A stretch of 64,000 bases of DNA from a virus, in the IMG/VR virus record IMGVR_UViG_3300042896_001274, positions 1 to 64,000 of that record, one strand, 5' to 3'. The translations under genes were made by a program, and so were the position numbers. Below, in pieces: positions 49,833 to 56,321 of this stretch; within the stretch, counting starts at the first letter, position 1; each line of letters opens with the position of its first letter. Under the pieces are notes generated by a model. The model did not search any database. It was not told the origin of the DNA and saw only the letters and a program-made list of their open reading frames with translations.

Positions 49833-52070
49833 TCATGAATCAATGATCTTAATACGGTTCATGAAAGTTTTATTACCGTAGTTATCAACCGTGATTTCAG
49901 AAAGACAAACACTATATTTTGGAATCTCAGTCTTGCCATCCCATCCCCAACAAAACAACCTTCGATTTTGACCGCCTAATCCAGTTATGGTCAACAACAA
50001 ATAAGGTTTTCCTGTCTTGGTTTTCTTTGGTTTTGAATCAGCAATGATAAACCAATAAATGTTTGTATCTGAAAGATCGTCGACCGATTGAACACCCTTC
50101 GATTCAAGCTTTTGAAGAATGTCTTCAGGCATAAGCATAGCTGCGTTGAATGACCCGAGATATTTTATGCTGTTATCTACCATCTCAGATCTGGTCCATT
50201 CTTCAATATCTTGAGTTTCGATTAAGATATTTTTAAATGATTCCATTCCGACCAACGGATTCTTTTTTGTATGTTTCTTGATTTCTACATTCCTATCAAT
50301 CAAGATTTCATTCATTTGCTTATAACTGCTAAACGTTTTTCCGTATCCGATACAATCCAAAGAATCGAAGGCTTTAATTCCAATCAGCGCTTCGAGTGAA
50401 CGTTTATTAAATTTTGAATGTTTCCACGAACCGTCTTCATTCCACAACATCTCTTCTACATTCTTATAAGGACGCTTTTCAATAATCTCATCCACCGCTG
50501 ACTCGCCAACTCCCTTACATGAAAGGAAGCTCGGCATAAATCGTTTGCCTTCCAAAATAGTCCAGCTCTTCGTCGCATAGTTAATGTCGATATTAACGAT
50601 TTTATATCCCAATGCTTTAACTTCAGAGAATGCTTTAGAACGTTTTTCGTCATTTCCTGACATGGATTCAAGATATGCACAAAGCCATTCCTCTTCAAAG
50701 TAAGTTAGAAGCCATGCACAGTAGTAAGAATCAATTGCATAAGAAACTGCGTGAGATGCATTGAAACCGTATCCTGAGAAGAACAACATCTTTTCATACA
50801 GCTCGTCTGCAACTCTTTCAGGTATTCCATTCTTCATTGATCCGTTAACGAACTCTTCTTTTGCCTTGCGAGCATCTGCAGCAGCATCATCTTTCTTTGC
50901 AGCAGAACGTTTCATAATGTTTCTACGGATCGTGTCTGTCTCTGCCTCAGGAAAACCTGCAACTACAGAGCACAACTTCATAACTGATTCTTGGAAAATG
51001 ATGCAACCATACGTGTTCTTAAGAACCTTTTCAATCAATGGATGTTGATAATCGATGTTATCTGCATTGTTCTTCGCGTCGATGTAAAGCTTATCAACGT
51101 TCGCAGCCAATGGACCTGGACGATAGATTGAAGTCAACGTTGCGATGTCGATGATGTTACGAGGCTTTGCCTTCATAAAAAGGCGTTGCGCGCCAGGCTG
51201 CGTACATTGGAAAACACCGGCAAATCTTCCTTCATGATAAACATATTCATAGACCTTTTGATCGTTTAGATCAATGTTCTTTGGATCCATGCGTTTATCG
51301 AACCACGACTTGATGTCTTTAAATGTAGGATTTGCGATTCCTTCTCTACGTTGTAAGATCAAATGAATGCATCGTTCAATGATTCGTAAGGTTTCAAGGC
51401 CAAGCAAATCGAACTTAATCCAACCAAACTCTTCTAGATGTTTGTAATGCATGCCCTCGACCCATGGCGTTTGAGGTTCGCCACGGGCCAAGATGAGAGG
51501 CATCTGTTCTGCAACATTTTCAGATACGATAACTCCACCAGCATGACGGCCAAGAGATCTGTTTTGTTTGAATAAAATCTCAATCGGCTCTGCAACTTCA
51601 GGATGCAAAGCCACAAAGTCTTGCATGGATTTTGAATACTTCATCGCATCTTCATACGTCAAAGTAAACAAATTCTTGTCAACACCAGGTTTAAAAACTT
51701 CTTTCTTAACGTCATCCTCAATGGGAGCCAATGCAGCATTCACTTCTTCGAATGGAATGTTATAGAACCTAGCAATGTCCTTGATAAGGCTCTTTAGCTT
51801 AAAAGTATTGTAGTTAGAAATTGGAATGACATTATGATTTCCAAAATTTTCGCGAAGCAAGTCGATTAGCTTATCACGGTCTCCAATATCAGAATCGATA
51901 TCAGGAGCACCTGAATTATGAGTTAACAGCCATTCTTTACTTGTGTTTGAAACAAAAAACGTGTGATCATCGTCAACTTCGATATCGATTAATTCGATTT
52001 CATCTTCTAGGTCAACAATCTCAATTGAATTAATCTTTGTACGTTTTAATGAGATAAGCTGTTCTTCCAT
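49833..52070 (-). CDS. dnaE: DNA polymerase III alpha, C-terminal fragment with intein C-part
   Basis: 745 aa. The first 52 residues are an intein C-terminal half: block F IELIDIEVDDDHTFFVSN and block G ending WLLTHN (penultimate His, last Asn). The polymerase resumes at SGAPDIDSDIGDRDKLIDLL, with Ser as the nucleophile of the C-extein. PDIDSD supplies the active-site aspartates (Asp401/403 in E. coli). Fingers (IDIATLTSIYRPGPLAANVD, HAVSYAIDSYYCAWLLTYFE) and a C-terminal OB-like region (PYLLLTITGLGGQNRRLFCW) follow. Exteins of 500 and 693 residues would give a complete DnaE of about 1190. The ATG lies 41 bp inside the endonuclease gene. Confidence 0.92.
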   Translation of the reverse strand: MEEQLISLKRTKINSIEIVDLEDEIELIDIEVDDDHTFFVSNTSKEWLLTHNSGAPDIDSDIGDRDKLIDLLRENFGNHNVIPISNYNTFKLKSLIKDIARFYNIPFEEVNAALAPIEDDVKKEVFKPGVDKNLFTLTYEDAMKYSKSMQDFVALHPEVAEPIEILFKQNRSLGRHAGGVIVSENVAEQMPLILARGEPQTPWVEGMHYKHLEEFGWIKFDLLGLETLRIIERCIHLILQRREGIANPTFKDIKSWFDKRMDPKNIDLNDQKVYEYVYHEGRFAGVFQCTQPGAQRLFMKAKPRNIIDIATLTSIYRPGPLAANVDKLYIDAKNNADNIDYQHPLIEKVLKNTYGCIIFQESVMKLCSVVAGFPEAETDTIRRNIMKRSAAKKDDAAADARKAKEEFVNGSMKNGIPERVADELYEKMLFFSGYGFNASHAVSYAIDSYYCAWLLTYFEEEWLCAYLESMSGNDEKRSKAFSEVKALGYKIVNIDINYATKSWTILEGKRFMPSFLSCKGVGESAVDEIIEKRPYKNVEEMLWNEDGSWKHSKFNKRSLEALIGIKAFDSLDCIGYGKTFSSYKQMNEILIDRNVEIKKHTKKNPLVGMESFKNILIETQDIEEWTRSEMVDNSIKYLGSFNAAMLMPEDILQKLESKGVQSVDDLSDTNIYWFIIADSKPKKTKTGKPYLLLTITGLGGQNRRLFCWGWDGKTEIPKYSVCLSEITVDNYGNKTFMNRIKIIDS
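51915..52070 (-). other. split intein C-terminal half (IntC, 52 residues)
   Basis: Codes for MEEQLISLKRTKINS ... EWLLTHN, followed by +1 Ser. Together with IntN it should catalyse protein trans-splicing. Confidence 0.9.
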
Positions 52071-52965
52071 AATCTTTATTTTCTAAATTGGGGATTTTAT
52101 CATAGAGACCAGATGATCTCAACATTGAATAAAAATCGTTCATATACACGACTTTTATTTTCACATCTGCAGAATTTAAACTCTCCCTAGCAGCTGAATT
52201 TGAATTTAACTTTTTCGAGAATAAATTTTCACTTTCTCGAATACCTTTTAATTCGATAAATTCGCCTAAGTCTGGTAAGTAAAAATCGGGAGTATAAAAT
52301 CTTTTCTTTCCGTTTATTTCCGTTTCAAAAACTTTTTTTTCGTATTCAAATCGAATTTTTAGATAAATGCAATATCTCGCGTAATCTGCTTCAAGAGAAC
52401 TTTTAAAATAAGGAGAATCTTGTATGTCAACCCTCCACCCTGTTCTTCCGTTTGTGTGTGACTTTATCAACCCTAACGATTGACCTTTTCTTGAACAAAT
52501 TTTATTACAAAAACGAGTTGTTGCAGATTTTTTTACTGTTAGTTTAGAGTTGCAAACTTCACAAAAAATATCTTTTCTATCATAAAGACTTTTTGAAAAA
52601 CAATCAGGAGAACAAAATTTCTGAGTGCTATTTTCATTTATCTCAAACTGTTTAAGACAGTTATTACATTTTTTTTGGACTTTTACATGCCTGGTATTAA
52701 CAAATGACATGTGCTTTGCGTAACAATTTTTTGAACACGTCACACGATTTTTTGCTTGCGAATGAGGAAGATAAAATTCTTTACAACATATCTTGCATTC
52801 AACTTTTTGCTTAGATCCATTTTCAGGAATTTTGTACCAGGCTTTTTTGCATTTTTCACCGCAGTACTTCTTTCTTGCTGAACCTGCAGAACCAGATCCA
52901 TTAACGACATATTCTACATAAAAAATCTTTTTGCAATGTTTACATGTTTTCTCAATTCTTTTCAT
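52030..52965 (-). CDS. free-standing homing endonuclease, zinc fingers plus PD-(D/E)XK
   Basis: 311 aa, located between the two split-intein polymerase ORFs. Residues 1-160 hold four treble-Cys modules (CKHCKKIF ... CGEKC; CKICCKEF ... CSKNC; CNNCLKQF ... CSPDC; CEVCNSKL ... CNKIC), likely DNA-binding zinc fingers. The nuclease core follows: SSLEADYARYCIYLKIRFEY, then RFYTPDFYLPDLGEFIELKG, with P-D and E-L-K of the PD-(D/E)XK fold. Position and type fit homing endonucleases that sit in fractured genes beside split inteins. Base composition is more A+T-rich than the flanking polymerase, pointing to separate origin. Confidence 0.85.
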   Translation of the reverse strand: MKRIEKTCKHCKKIFYVEYVVNGSGSAGSARKKYCGEKCKKAWYKIPENGSKQKVECKICCKEFYLPHSQAKNRVTCSKNCYAKHMSFVNTRHVKVQKKCNNCLKQFEINENSTQKFCSPDCFSKSLYDRKDIFCEVCNSKLTVKKSATTRFCNKICSRKGQSLGLIKSHTNGRTGWRVDIQDSPYFKSSLEADYARYCIYLKIRFEYEKKVFETEINGKKRFYTPDFYLPDLGEFIELKGIRESENLFSKKLNSNSAARESLNSADVKIKVVYMNDFYSMLRSSGLYDKIPNLENKDYGRTAYLIKTYKD

Positions 52966-52973
52966 GCAGATAA

Positions 52974-54752
52974 TTATTTAACGATAGACAATAATTCGTC
53001 TGTAATTAAAATTTCTTTAGCTTGAACTTCAATCTTTTTATCATCACGGACAACAATCCATAGATGATTTTCTGAACATTCGATACACCCTTCATCAGTT
53101 CTAAATCGATAAACTCTTTTTGCTTTTGAAATAAACTTGCTATTAACTTTCTTTAATGACCCAGATCCTCCGACTACTAAATCACCAATTTCTAAATCTT
53201 TGATTTTTTTAAAACTTTTTTCAGTTTTTACTAAAGTTTCTGGATTTAAACATCTATGAGGATTAAGAAACCTTTCAAACGAAAGGTCGTACTCCATTGG
53301 GTCAAGGTTCGTCACACCAAGAACATAAGCAACAAGAGAACCTGCTGCAGATCCTCGACCTGGACCGATCAGCATGTGTTCGCGGGCGATATCCATGATC
53401 GCCTTCATCGTCAAGAAGTACCTAGAGAACTTCTTACCCTTAATGATTCCTAGTTCATACTTAATACGCTCGATGTACTCTGGTTTGTCATCGAGTCCCC
53501 GCCAAACAAGTCCTTTCTTACAAGCATCAACCAATGCCTTGTCCTCTGTCATTCCTTCCGGAATCACGTAGGAAGGAAGCTTCATCTCTTTGTTGGGATG
53601 AATGTCTCCAATTTCGTTGTGGACGATGTCGTGTGTGCGCTCAACTGCTTCACGAACAACATCATCATCATAGAACTCCATCTCACCAGCTGTCTGGATA
53701 TAAGAATCCCAGACCTGAGAAGCATTCTTTGGATACAACTCGCACTTAAGATCATCCTTAGATTTTGGAAGCTGGCTAGGGTCAAAGTTTTGATAGTTCA
53801 ACCAACCAAGTTTCTTATAGATCTCACGTTCCTTCCAGTTGTCTGGTCGAGCATAGTGAGAATCGCACGTCACGATCAACCTGTCTTCAAGGGAATTTCT
53901 CTTTGCAAATTCGATGATCGCACGATTGACAAGATGCTGAGCAGGAAGCTTGTTAAACTGAAGCTCTAGACATACGTTATCACGACCTAGAGCGTCTGCT
54001 AATTTGTCATAGGTATTACCCATCTCGAGTAGAGCAGCTTCCATGATGGACTGATCATCCAGAAGCTTGTAGGAAAGGTCCTCGAATTTTACTCGTTGAA
54101 CCTTTGAGAACACGTCATACGACAGCGGCCCTCCCAGACAAGCTGAGCTCACCATCAAGTGACCACCTTGAGCTGCTTCCTTAAGCATTCCGTAATCAAC
54201 TCGTGGGAACCTGTAGAAGCCCTCCAAATAACCTCGAGAAACTAGATGGAATAATCTTTGTAGACCAATCGAGGTTTTTGGTAGGACAACCAGATGGTGC
54301 CGGCGCTTCACTGGGTCATTGTACTTACCAGATTTTGTCTCTTCCTCGTTCTCAATGGTCAGAGCAGCTTCGTCTGTTCCAATATCTGTTGTCTCATCAT
54401 TTCCATCTACTACTGCAGTGAGAGGTGTGAGGATAGACTCATCTTTGACAGGCTTCTCTTTTGATTTTTGTAGGTCCCTCTGCCACTGCTTCAAGTCAGG
54501 ATGGACGTACATCTCACACCCAGGAATGAACTTAAAGTTCTTACCAGACTTACGAAGCTTCTCAGCATGAAGGTAGGCATGTCCAAAACCATTCATGTGA
54601 CCATGGTCGGTCAGCGACCATGCGTCCATTCCATTCTCAAGAACATAATCGATGTGCTCTTGTGGGTAGTCAAGTCCATCGAAGGTTGAAAATCCAGAGT
54701 GAGAATGTACACCTACGAATCGTGAGGGCACTTTTTTGTGATTTACGCTCAT
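52974..54752 (-). CDS. dnaE: DNA polymerase III alpha, N-terminal fragment with intein N-part
   Basis: 592 aa from the ATG at 54752 (MSVNHKKVPSRFVGVHSHSG); the frame runs to 54803 but that includes the promoter. PHP domain: HSHSGFSTFDG, WSLTDHGHMNG, PGCEMYVHPDL, all metal-type residues kept, so a Mg/Zn exonuclease site is possible. Palm: LIGPGRGSAAGSLVAYVLGV, LDPMEYDLSFERFLNPHR. The native sequence stops there and 92 residues of intein N-terminal half follow (block A CLNPETLVKT, block B GCIECSENHLWIVV). The break is 5 residues before the catalytic Asp pair. Promoter upstream. Confidence 0.92.
   Translation of the reverse strand: MSVNHKKVPSRFVGVHSHSGFSTFDGLDYPQEHIDYVLENGMDAWSLTDHGHMNGFGHAYLHAEKLRKSGKNFKFIPGCEMYVHPDLKQWQRDLQKSKEKPVKDESILTPLTAVVDGNDETTDIGTDEAALTIENEEETKSGKYNDPVKRRHHLVVLPKTSIGLQRLFHLVSRGYLEGFYRFPRVDYGMLKEAAQGGHLMVSSACLGGPLSYDVFSKVQRVKFEDLSYKLLDDQSIMEAALLEMGNTYDKLADALGRDNVCLELQFNKLPAQHLVNRAIIEFAKRNSLEDRLIVTCDSHYARPDNWKEREIYKKLGWLNYQNFDPSQLPKSKDDLKCELYPKNASQVWDSYIQTAGEMEFYDDDVVREAVERTHDIVHNEIGDIHPNKEMKLPSYVIPEGMTEDKALVDACKKGLVWRGLDDKPEYIERIKYELGIIKGKKFSRYFLTMKAIMDIAREHMLIGPGRGSAAGSLVAYVLGVTNLDPMEYDLSFERFLNPHRCLNPETLVKTEKSFKKIKDLEIGDLVVGGSGSLKKVNSKFISKAKRVYRFRTDEGCIECSENHLWIVVRDDKKIEVQAKEILITDELLSIVK
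52977..53252 (-). other. split intein N-terminal half (IntN, 92 residues)
   Basis: Starts at the Cys after FLNPHR and ends at a stop. Cys1, the S-E-N-H motif of block B and an IGDLVVG strand are present; no endonuclease domain. Confidence 0.9.
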
Positions 54753-55316: not shown

Positions 55317-56321
55317 TCACATTACCTGTGCCGCGATCAAGCAACCACGGGCAACGGCATGAAGAGGATCTGCTGCATGACGGACCTCCTTGACTGGAAG
55401 AGGAAATCCATTTTCCTCAAGTTTCTTTGCGAATAGATCCACGAAACCCTTGGCCTTCGAAGTTCCACCGGCGACGACGATCGGAAGCGGATCCTTGAAT
55501 TTCGGAATTGATTTATGACCATCCATCGCTGATGCCAATTGCTTCGTCGTATAATCGATCAAACGATCGTAGTAAGAAGCAACGGCTGCTAGAACCTGAT
55601 TATCATTTGGCTCACCGACCGTAAAGTCGCCTTGTTCCTTCTCTGCCTGGACAATAGAGTCGGCTTCACCTGTTGCGACGGCTGCCATGCGGTCGACCCA
55701 ATCACCTGACTTCGTTGTGGAAAATGTGACGACAGGTTCACCGTTCAACATCACACAAACGTTGACCATACCTGCACCCCATGAAAGAGCAACTCCGGTA
55801 TAATCATCCTTTTCTAGTTCTGAATAGCAAAGGGCTTCGGCCTCATTGATTGCACGAGCAGAGTATCCTACCTCTGTTAGGAGCTTGACAATAACATCCT
55901 CGTGATAACCAACATCGAAGTCATCATCCTCCTGATCAACAGGCTGTGCGGGGATGCAAAACACCAACTTCTCTCCAGGCTCTGAAGGCTTACCAGAAAC
56001 TTCCTTTAAGATATACGTTAGGATCCTGCGAGCATCTTTCTCCTTAGAAGAAACCACTCCTTTATACATTGGACGCTTGGCTGAGTCGTTTCTTTCTACG
56101 GCCTTTTCAATTGCGTCCTTGCCGAGGATGATGAAAGAACCGTCTTCATCCTTGACGAAAGTCTTTCCTGCGAGACCTTTCTCAATCATCTTGGTTGCGA
56201 TGGGTGTTGTTGGTTTGATGACATAAAATGCATCGCGGAAATCCTTATATGTAACTTTGTTCTTAGAGCCTTCTTCAGCGAGAACGATGAAAGAAGTACC
56301 GACGTCGAGACCTTTAGCCAT
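55317..56321 (-). CDS. actin-like ATPase (ParM/MreB/Hsp70 superfamily)
   Basis: 334 aa. MAKGLDVGTSFIVLAEE (phosphate 1), VDQEDDDF region, AINEAEALCYSE (connect 1), ALSWGAGMVNVCVM (phosphate 2) and LPIVVAGGTSKAKGFVDLFA (adenosine site), followed by PLHAVARGCLIAA. All five actin-fold motifs can be traced, so it should bind ATP and may form filaments. In phages such proteins can segregate genomes or position replication. Preceded by AGGAG. No partner DNA-binding gene is obvious next to it. Confidence 0.75.
   Translation of the reverse strand: MAKGLDVGTSFIVLAEEGSKNKVTYKDFRDAFYVIKPTTPIATKMIEKGLAGKTFVKDEDGSFIILGKDAIEKAVERNDSAKRPMYKGVVSSKEKDARRILTYILKEVSGKPSEPGEKLVFCIPAQPVDQEDDDFDVGYHEDVIVKLLTEVGYSARAINEAEALCYSELEKDDYTGVALSWGAGMVNVCVMLNGEPVVTFSTTKSGDWVDRMAAVATGEADSIVQAEKEQGDFTVGEPNDNQVLAAVASYYDRLIDYTTKQLASAMDGHKSIPKFKDPLPIVVAGGTSKAKGFVDLFAKKLEENGFPLPVKEVRHAADPLHAVARGCLIAAQVM

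Follow-up and report, generated by a model that had tools for sequence, protein, structure and literature searches.

The 64,000-nucleotide window analysed here (positions 1 to 64,000 of IMG/VR virus record IMGVR_UViG_3300042896_001274, a record of 68 kb) encodes a DnaE-type DNA polymerase III (Pol III) alpha subunit as two open reading frames (ORFs) at 54752-49833 on the minus strand, with the halves of a split intein at the break and an endonuclease (EN) gene between them. Comparison with related viral contigs makes it very probable that the arrangement as a whole is a fractured-gene mobile element combining trans-splicing with homing. Elements of the fractured-gene kind are already known, and this is one of them; the first-pass annotation of this DNA had so classified it, and the adjacent ORFs, the intein pieces at the junction ends, the intervening EN gene and the intact genes of relatives bear that out.

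A polymerase gene divided beside its active site

The first dnaE ORF ends in the N-terminal intein part (IntN) and the second begins with the C-terminal part (IntC). The coordinates and lengths first proposed for the N-part and both intein pieces agree with the ORF and intein alignments, and the overlap of the EN gene with IntC follows from the coordinates (Table 1). The EN gene starts 8 nt past the IntN stop. The insert measures 1338 bp and has 30.3% G+C, against 45.3% and 39.2% in the N- and C-terminal halves of the polymerase. PHP, nucleotidyltransferase, fingers and helix-hairpin-helix domains of Pol III alpha were found, as was the PDxD active-site motif, and PF07733 (Pol III alpha) is divided exactly at the insert, ending at domain position 102 in one ORF and resuming at 98 in the other. 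The C-extein motif aligns with MPDIDTD of Taq Pol III alpha from residue 461, and its Asp-Ile-Asp we take to be the catalytic residues of the polymerase. The break therefore lies beside the catalytic aspartates, as first annotated, although not five residues before them: S-G-A-P, four residues, lies between the junction and the first Asp, which is +5.

The gene is intact in about 40 distinct relatives, and the insert lies exactly between two of its codons. Most relatives have an empty site; the first-pass annotation had suggested looking for such sites in related phages, and they occur in close relatives with 80-91% protein identity, whose genes run through the junction without a scar. The same fractured arrangement was found in identical or near-identical form in further window-type contigs, and also in the divergent phages L101, L102, L185, L193, L194, L186, L196 and L200. 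Two ORFs around an AT-rich insert with an endonuclease also occur in introns, and dnaE might accordingly be split by a group I or II intron, by a sequencing frameshift or by pseudogene decay. These explanations are refuted on present evidence: Rfam detected no group I or II intron at the locus, the arrangement recurs in independent contigs, the homology of IntN and IntC is clear, and all parts are under strong purifying selection. A second, continuous polymerase gene was found neither in the 68-kb record nor in the 187-kb relative G001, both of which may be fragments. In cultured phages, a DNA search returned only an 88-bp piece with 75% identity, from Streptomyces phages, a C-extein protein search listed DnaE at about 25-32% identity, and the intein was absent apart from a weak 30-residue match.

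Table 1. Coordinates of the dnaE element in the window and of related loci. Site a is the insertion point R↓xGxPDID of dnaE (R↓SGAPDID in the window), arrows marking breaks.
Feature	Position or contig	Strand	Remarks
dnaE N-part ORF	54752-52974	(-)	592 codons: 500-aa extein plus 92-aa IntN
N-extein	53253..54752	(-)	500 aa; PHP and first part of nucleotidyltransferase domain; ends ...ERFLNPHR
IntN	52977..53252	(-)	92 aa; Cys1 first (CLNPETLV...); TAA stop 52976-52974
EN gene	52030..52965	(-)	311 aa; zinc fingers and PD-(D/E)XK domain
EN catalytic region	52246..52392	(-)	residues 192-240; alignment and profile
EN 3' end and IntC 5' end, overlap	52030..52070	(-)	41 bp, different frames
dnaE C-part ORF	52070-49833	(-)	IntC first
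IntC	51915..52070	(-)	52 aa; ends Leu-Thr-His-Asn (...EWLLTHN)
C-extein	49833..51914	(-)	693 aa; Ser+1 first: SGAPDIDSD
Active-site Asp-Ile-Asp codons	51894..51902	(-)	C-extein residues +5 to +7; Taq Pol III alpha alignment
Free-standing upstream EN genes	L082:4137-5063; L041:5993-6910; L016:2318-3241; L101:1896-2096		
Further fractured dnaE sites	L035:9251-10800; L016:5551-7098; L040:5400-7100; L041:9500-11300		
Site a, EN overlapping IntC	window, L007, L008, L101, L102, L185, L193, L194, L186, L196, L200		
Site a, contiguous intein	L082, L179		
Site a, split without EN	L187/L191		short spacer, AGGA ahead of IntC's own ATG
Site a, split without EN	L198		stop and start overlap, ATGCTTAA
Site a, split without EN	L195		short zinc-finger-like remnant MIKNCKNCGKEFEIEARNKAGSG between halves
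Site a, other cargo	L182:9486-10915 (viral contig 3300007735_000739)		two genes between IntN and IntC replace EN
Site a, other cargo	L184		330-aa antisense open frame

All residues of a class 1, gp41-1-like intein are present: Cys1, the block B His (CSENHLW), the block F Asp and His (LIDIEVDDDH) and LTHN↓S. L082, a contig of 298 kb, has an uninterrupted intein of 135 amino acids at this codon boundary, which can be aligned over its whole length with the window IntN and IntC (47% and 54% identity). A profile of these inteins matches the gp41-1 structures 6riz and 6qaz (E 9e-12). With gp41-1 the window intein shares Cys1, the Thr-His-Asn end, Ser+1 and a similar split position, at identities of about 34% (IntN) and 48% (IntC). 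IntC of gp41-1 has 37 amino acids; that of the window is longer (52), the extra N-terminal part being encoded in the EN overlap region, and the host protein is Pol III alpha instead of a helicase. By these alignments it is a new gp41-1-like split pair. The THN ending has been reported to matter for the efficiency of C-terminal cleavage in gp41-1 (PMC12245125). No further intein was detected in the window record with PF14890 or TIGR01445, a weak negative, since both also miss the window's own intein.

The EN carries four CX2C...CX3C zinc fingers (about residues 8-156) and the PD-(D/E)XK residues E192, D227 and E238-x-K240, which have the spacing of T7 endonuclease I and are invariant in the alignment of the EN family. 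It matches the T7 endonuclease I profile (1m0d) with E 1e-9, and Pfam Phage_endo_I at 25 bits, below the cut-off of 29.1 bits. The catalytic residues and the profile match thus uphold the initial description of a zinc-finger PD-(D/E)XK endonuclease between the halves. The window EN gave no vsr match, so a Vsr-like (EDxHD) domain was not recognised in it. Compared with L007/L008, its nonsynonymous (dN) and synonymous (dS) distances are 0.036-0.039 and 0.33-0.38, a dN/dS of about 0.1, and the EN is therefore maintained in the window clade. The overlap with IntC repeats in all EN-bearing relatives checked.

Free-standing genes of the EN family lie immediately upstream of dnaE in L082, L041, L016, L046/L053, L101, L108, L112-L116, L146, L148 and L159; the window has none there. 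A recent capture of such a gene was considered as the source of the window EN and rejected: family and architecture are shared, yet identity is only about 30%.

Lateral movement of the insert

Between the window and L007/L008, dS is 0.18-0.52 in IntN, EN and IntC, whereas the exteins are at 2.1 or saturated, and identity jumps at both insert borders from about 75-85% to 86-97%. Judged by these distances, the insert in the window clade is far more recent than the gene that hosts it. Fracture also changed repeatedly over the wider dnaE tree, where the fractured label requires at least 4 changes.

At the junction, near relatives with an empty site read PSR↓QGAPDID (L035, 90-91% amino acid identity, and L040) or PSR↓TGAPDID (L013/L014); across the wider family, empty alleles have E, T, Q, K, S, V or H at +1, and the group of L102 and L179 has an empty relative, L146, with a native Thr+1. 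From just right of the junction onwards, the occupied contig of L007, designated L011, matches the empty L040 at 98.6% identity for 5.66 kb; further to the left, their identity is 96%. The first six bases right of the insert are TCAGGA in L011 and CAGGGC in L040, giving Ser+1 and Gln+1 respectively, and about the last 55 bp of the L011 left flank (CCTAGATCCTGTAGAGTATGACC...) agree with the fractured L008 rather than with L040. This pattern suggests that the flanks of L011 are a co-conversion tract from an L008-like donor, which would have supplied the Ser+1 nucleophile. L007, the fractured L008 and the empty L014 come from the same metagenome; the inserts of L011 and L008 differ by about 7%, so the former was not merely copied from L008 reads. 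By this footprint the insert is mobile and has moved laterally with co-conversion of its flanks. The L011 and L040 pair suggests, moreover, how a site unable to support splicing with its native +1 residue can be invaded by an intein, the nucleophile arriving in the converted flank.

The following course of events may be proposed. The two polymerase halves would be translated separately, and IntN and IntC would associate and trans-splice in vivo to give a single polymerase, for which the window ORFs predict 1193 amino acids. Until then the polymerase would presumably be dead, as the first-pass annotation held. The EN would act as a homing endonuclease, cutting the intein-free dnaE of co-infecting phages near the R↓xGxPDID codons, and repair would copy IntN, EN and IntC together with short flanks into the cut allele, leaving a recombination footprint such as that of L011. 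The copied flank would bring the Ser, because near empty alleles natively have Gln or Thr at +1. Occupied alleles would be immune, their target being interrupted. Relatives would later lose the EN and, in two cases, the fracture itself.

Several points weigh against this scheme. The L011 and L040 pair is a single event reconstructed from metagenome contigs, and to the left of its junction about 880 bp are mosaic. The AlphaFold models of the contiguous intein homologue (mean predicted local distance difference test score, pLDDT, 42) and of the EN (mean pLDDT 48), both from shallow alignments, are too poor to use, and sequence profiles were relied on for intein and EN in place of fold comparison. 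Splicing, finally, may not be strictly needed for activity, as one relative discussed below implies.

States of the insertion site and direction of change

A search of viral contigs with the DNA pattern HN[S/T/C]xxPDIDxD returned 23 stretches, all of them dnaE with this type of IntC; in bacterial genomes the same pattern gave 13 matches, none of which was dnaE once translated, so that no cellular counterpart was found by pattern. The alleles at site a cover almost all the states that a fractured gene can take: some are empty, some recently invaded, some still split after loss of the EN, some carry other cargo and some are contiguous again. They thereby allow both directions of split intein origin to be tested with real sequences. 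The EN is repeatedly absent among them. In L182 its place is taken by a D12 adenine DNA methyltransferase (PF02086, E 1e-33) and a 197-amino acid protein of unknown family whose sequence has a PD...ExK-like motif; by these motifs the two are a restriction-modification-like pair inside a split intein.

L179 and L200 align without gaps on either side of a 954-bp difference. At the join, the contiguous L179 reads ...AAGTCTCCGTG↓TGAGTT... and the fractured L200 reads ...AAGTCTCCGTG↓AAAC...[EN]...CAAT↓TGAGTT..., so that a Cys codon of L179 retains the TG of the IntN stop TGA. L102 is also fractured and has the same IntN stop as L200. L179 groups with L200 with supports of 93/94 (intein) and 100/100 (extein), and a clade of the two contiguous inteins, L082 and L179, is rejected by the approximately unbiased test (p 9e-4 for the intein, 2.5e-49 for the extein). 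On the simplest reading of these alignments, L179 probably arose by healing of a fractured gene. Healing is also favoured for L082, less securely because its branch is long. One observation calls for caution: identity between L179 and L200 is higher within about 450-600 bp left of the join, which suggests a recent exchange there, so that an EN might instead have been transferred into a contiguous allele.

Natural split inteins are usually traced to contiguous inteins invaded by endonucleases (PMC11766414) or to inteins broken by rearrangement (PMC5874633). At site a we lean towards the reverse of the usual direction, in which the fractured, EN-bearing form would be the older and the contiguous and EN-free split forms would derive from it repeatedly through loss of the EN. 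Loss would have taken the route of in-frame healing in L179 and probably L082, of a simple split in L187/L191, L198 and L195, and of cargo replacement in L182. If this is true, natural split inteins without an EN are a decay product of homing elements.

The persistence of the split after EN loss in L187, L191, L198 and L195 also bears on why the split is kept. Together with the position of the break beside the catalytic aspartates, which probably leaves unspliced halves inactive, it could mean that the intein was adopted as a replication switch, responding for example to redox state or to the ratio of the halves, and kept for that benefit and not for homing. Such a switch is nevertheless improbable, as most relatives have an empty site, the insert is much younger than the host gene in the window clade and the EN is maintained there.

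Another view is that the halves form a non-covalent two-subunit polymerase in which the intein pieces, although present, splice slowly or partially or need not splice at all. The NrdA of phage Aeh1, which is interrupted by an endonuclease gene and has no splicing element, is reported to be functional (PMC3653736), and in L091 (1352-8336) the break in Pol III alpha, close to site a, has no intein and unrelated genes lie in between. Every occupied allele nonetheless retains all the splicing residues, the imported Ser+1 included, IntN and IntC show purifying selection by dN/dS analysis, and the contiguous relatives L082 and L179 require a working intein. A two-subunit polymerase is accordingly quite improbable, and the mobile trans-splicing element is preferred. 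L091 itself was set aside as a further fracture of site a, having no intein at the break; further on, at the position where cyanobacterial DnaE is classically split, it carries an IntN similar to that of Npu DnaE.

Known systems, other breaks and other genes

Fractured genes, reportedly described by Dassa in 2009 and mainly in phages, are said to consist of a conserved enzyme of DNA metabolism whose gene is broken by a split intein and holds a free-standing endonuclease gene in the break, the endonuclease family named being Vsr-like EDxHD. The window resembles them in its broken DNA-metabolism enzyme, split intein and intervening EN gene. It differs in that its EN is a T7 endonuclease I-like PD-(D/E)XK protein with four zinc fingers and not Vsr-like EDxHD, in that the EN 3' end overlaps IntC in all relatives checked, and in the Gln or Thr native to the +1 position of near empty alleles. 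The cyanobacterial DnaE split intein (Ssp/Npu) is likewise a naturally split intein in Pol III alpha. It is inserted at Y↓CFNK, unlike the R↓SGAPDID of the window, and has no endonuclease gene between its halves. Collaborative or intronless homing is known from F-CphI and psbA (PMC6083498). L082 is alike in having a free-standing EN relative upstream of dnaE and an EN-free intein at site a, whereas the EN of the window is encoded inside the split intein. No description of a T7 endonuclease I-like zinc-finger EN, of a recurrent EN and IntC overlap, of an imported nucleophile or of apparent healing was found in the literature searched, which excluded the founding fractured-gene paper.

The dnaE of related phages is also fractured at YG↓C (L035, L016), STA↓C (L040), GFNK↓S (L041) and GPGRG↓S (L198); these four sites have Cys or Ser as native +1 residue, in contrast to site a of the window clade. 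At these other sites L035 and L040 have Vsr-like ENs, with TIGR00632 matches below cut-off. Three-piece genes occur in L187 (468-4512; a break at STA↓C or equivalent with a homing-endonuclease-like gene, and site a split without EN), in L182 (broken at site a and also at STA↓C or equivalent) and in L198 (10240-13466; breaks at GPGRG↓S and at site a, R↓T before PDID), whose contig stops just past PDIDSD and whose middle exon, flanked by two inteins, has only 33 residues. These alleles are of interest for protein engineering, as they add to a new gp41-1-like split pair several relatives that need two trans-splicing events per protein, one of them with a 33-residue middle exon.

Other genes with similar interruptions were noticed in the related phages. 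In the L082 phage, stretch L175 (G002:C1:201500-212500) holds a RecA-like gene with a very short IntN-like tail (CVGPSTQLTVRKRVA) at the end of its first part. The same stretch encodes a three-piece ribonucleotide reductase, accompanied by two distinct endonuclease genes. L176 (G002:C1:258500-262000) encodes a portal-like structural protein with a contiguous intein containing an HNH-like region, and in L177 (G008:C1:207500-211500) a dUTPase-like gene is broken by a split intein, its halves flanking a gene for a PD-(D/E)XK-like endonuclease.

Upstream of dnaE, the window encodes an actin-like protein (55317-56321; Pfam Volactin, E 5e-67); L016 and L041 likewise have near-identical genes upstream of dnaE. 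Finally, a gene at 11510-12502 matches the PHROG '2-aminooxy adenylosuccinate synthetase' (E 3e-65) and may be PurZ-like, so that modified adenine is possible in the DNA of this phage.

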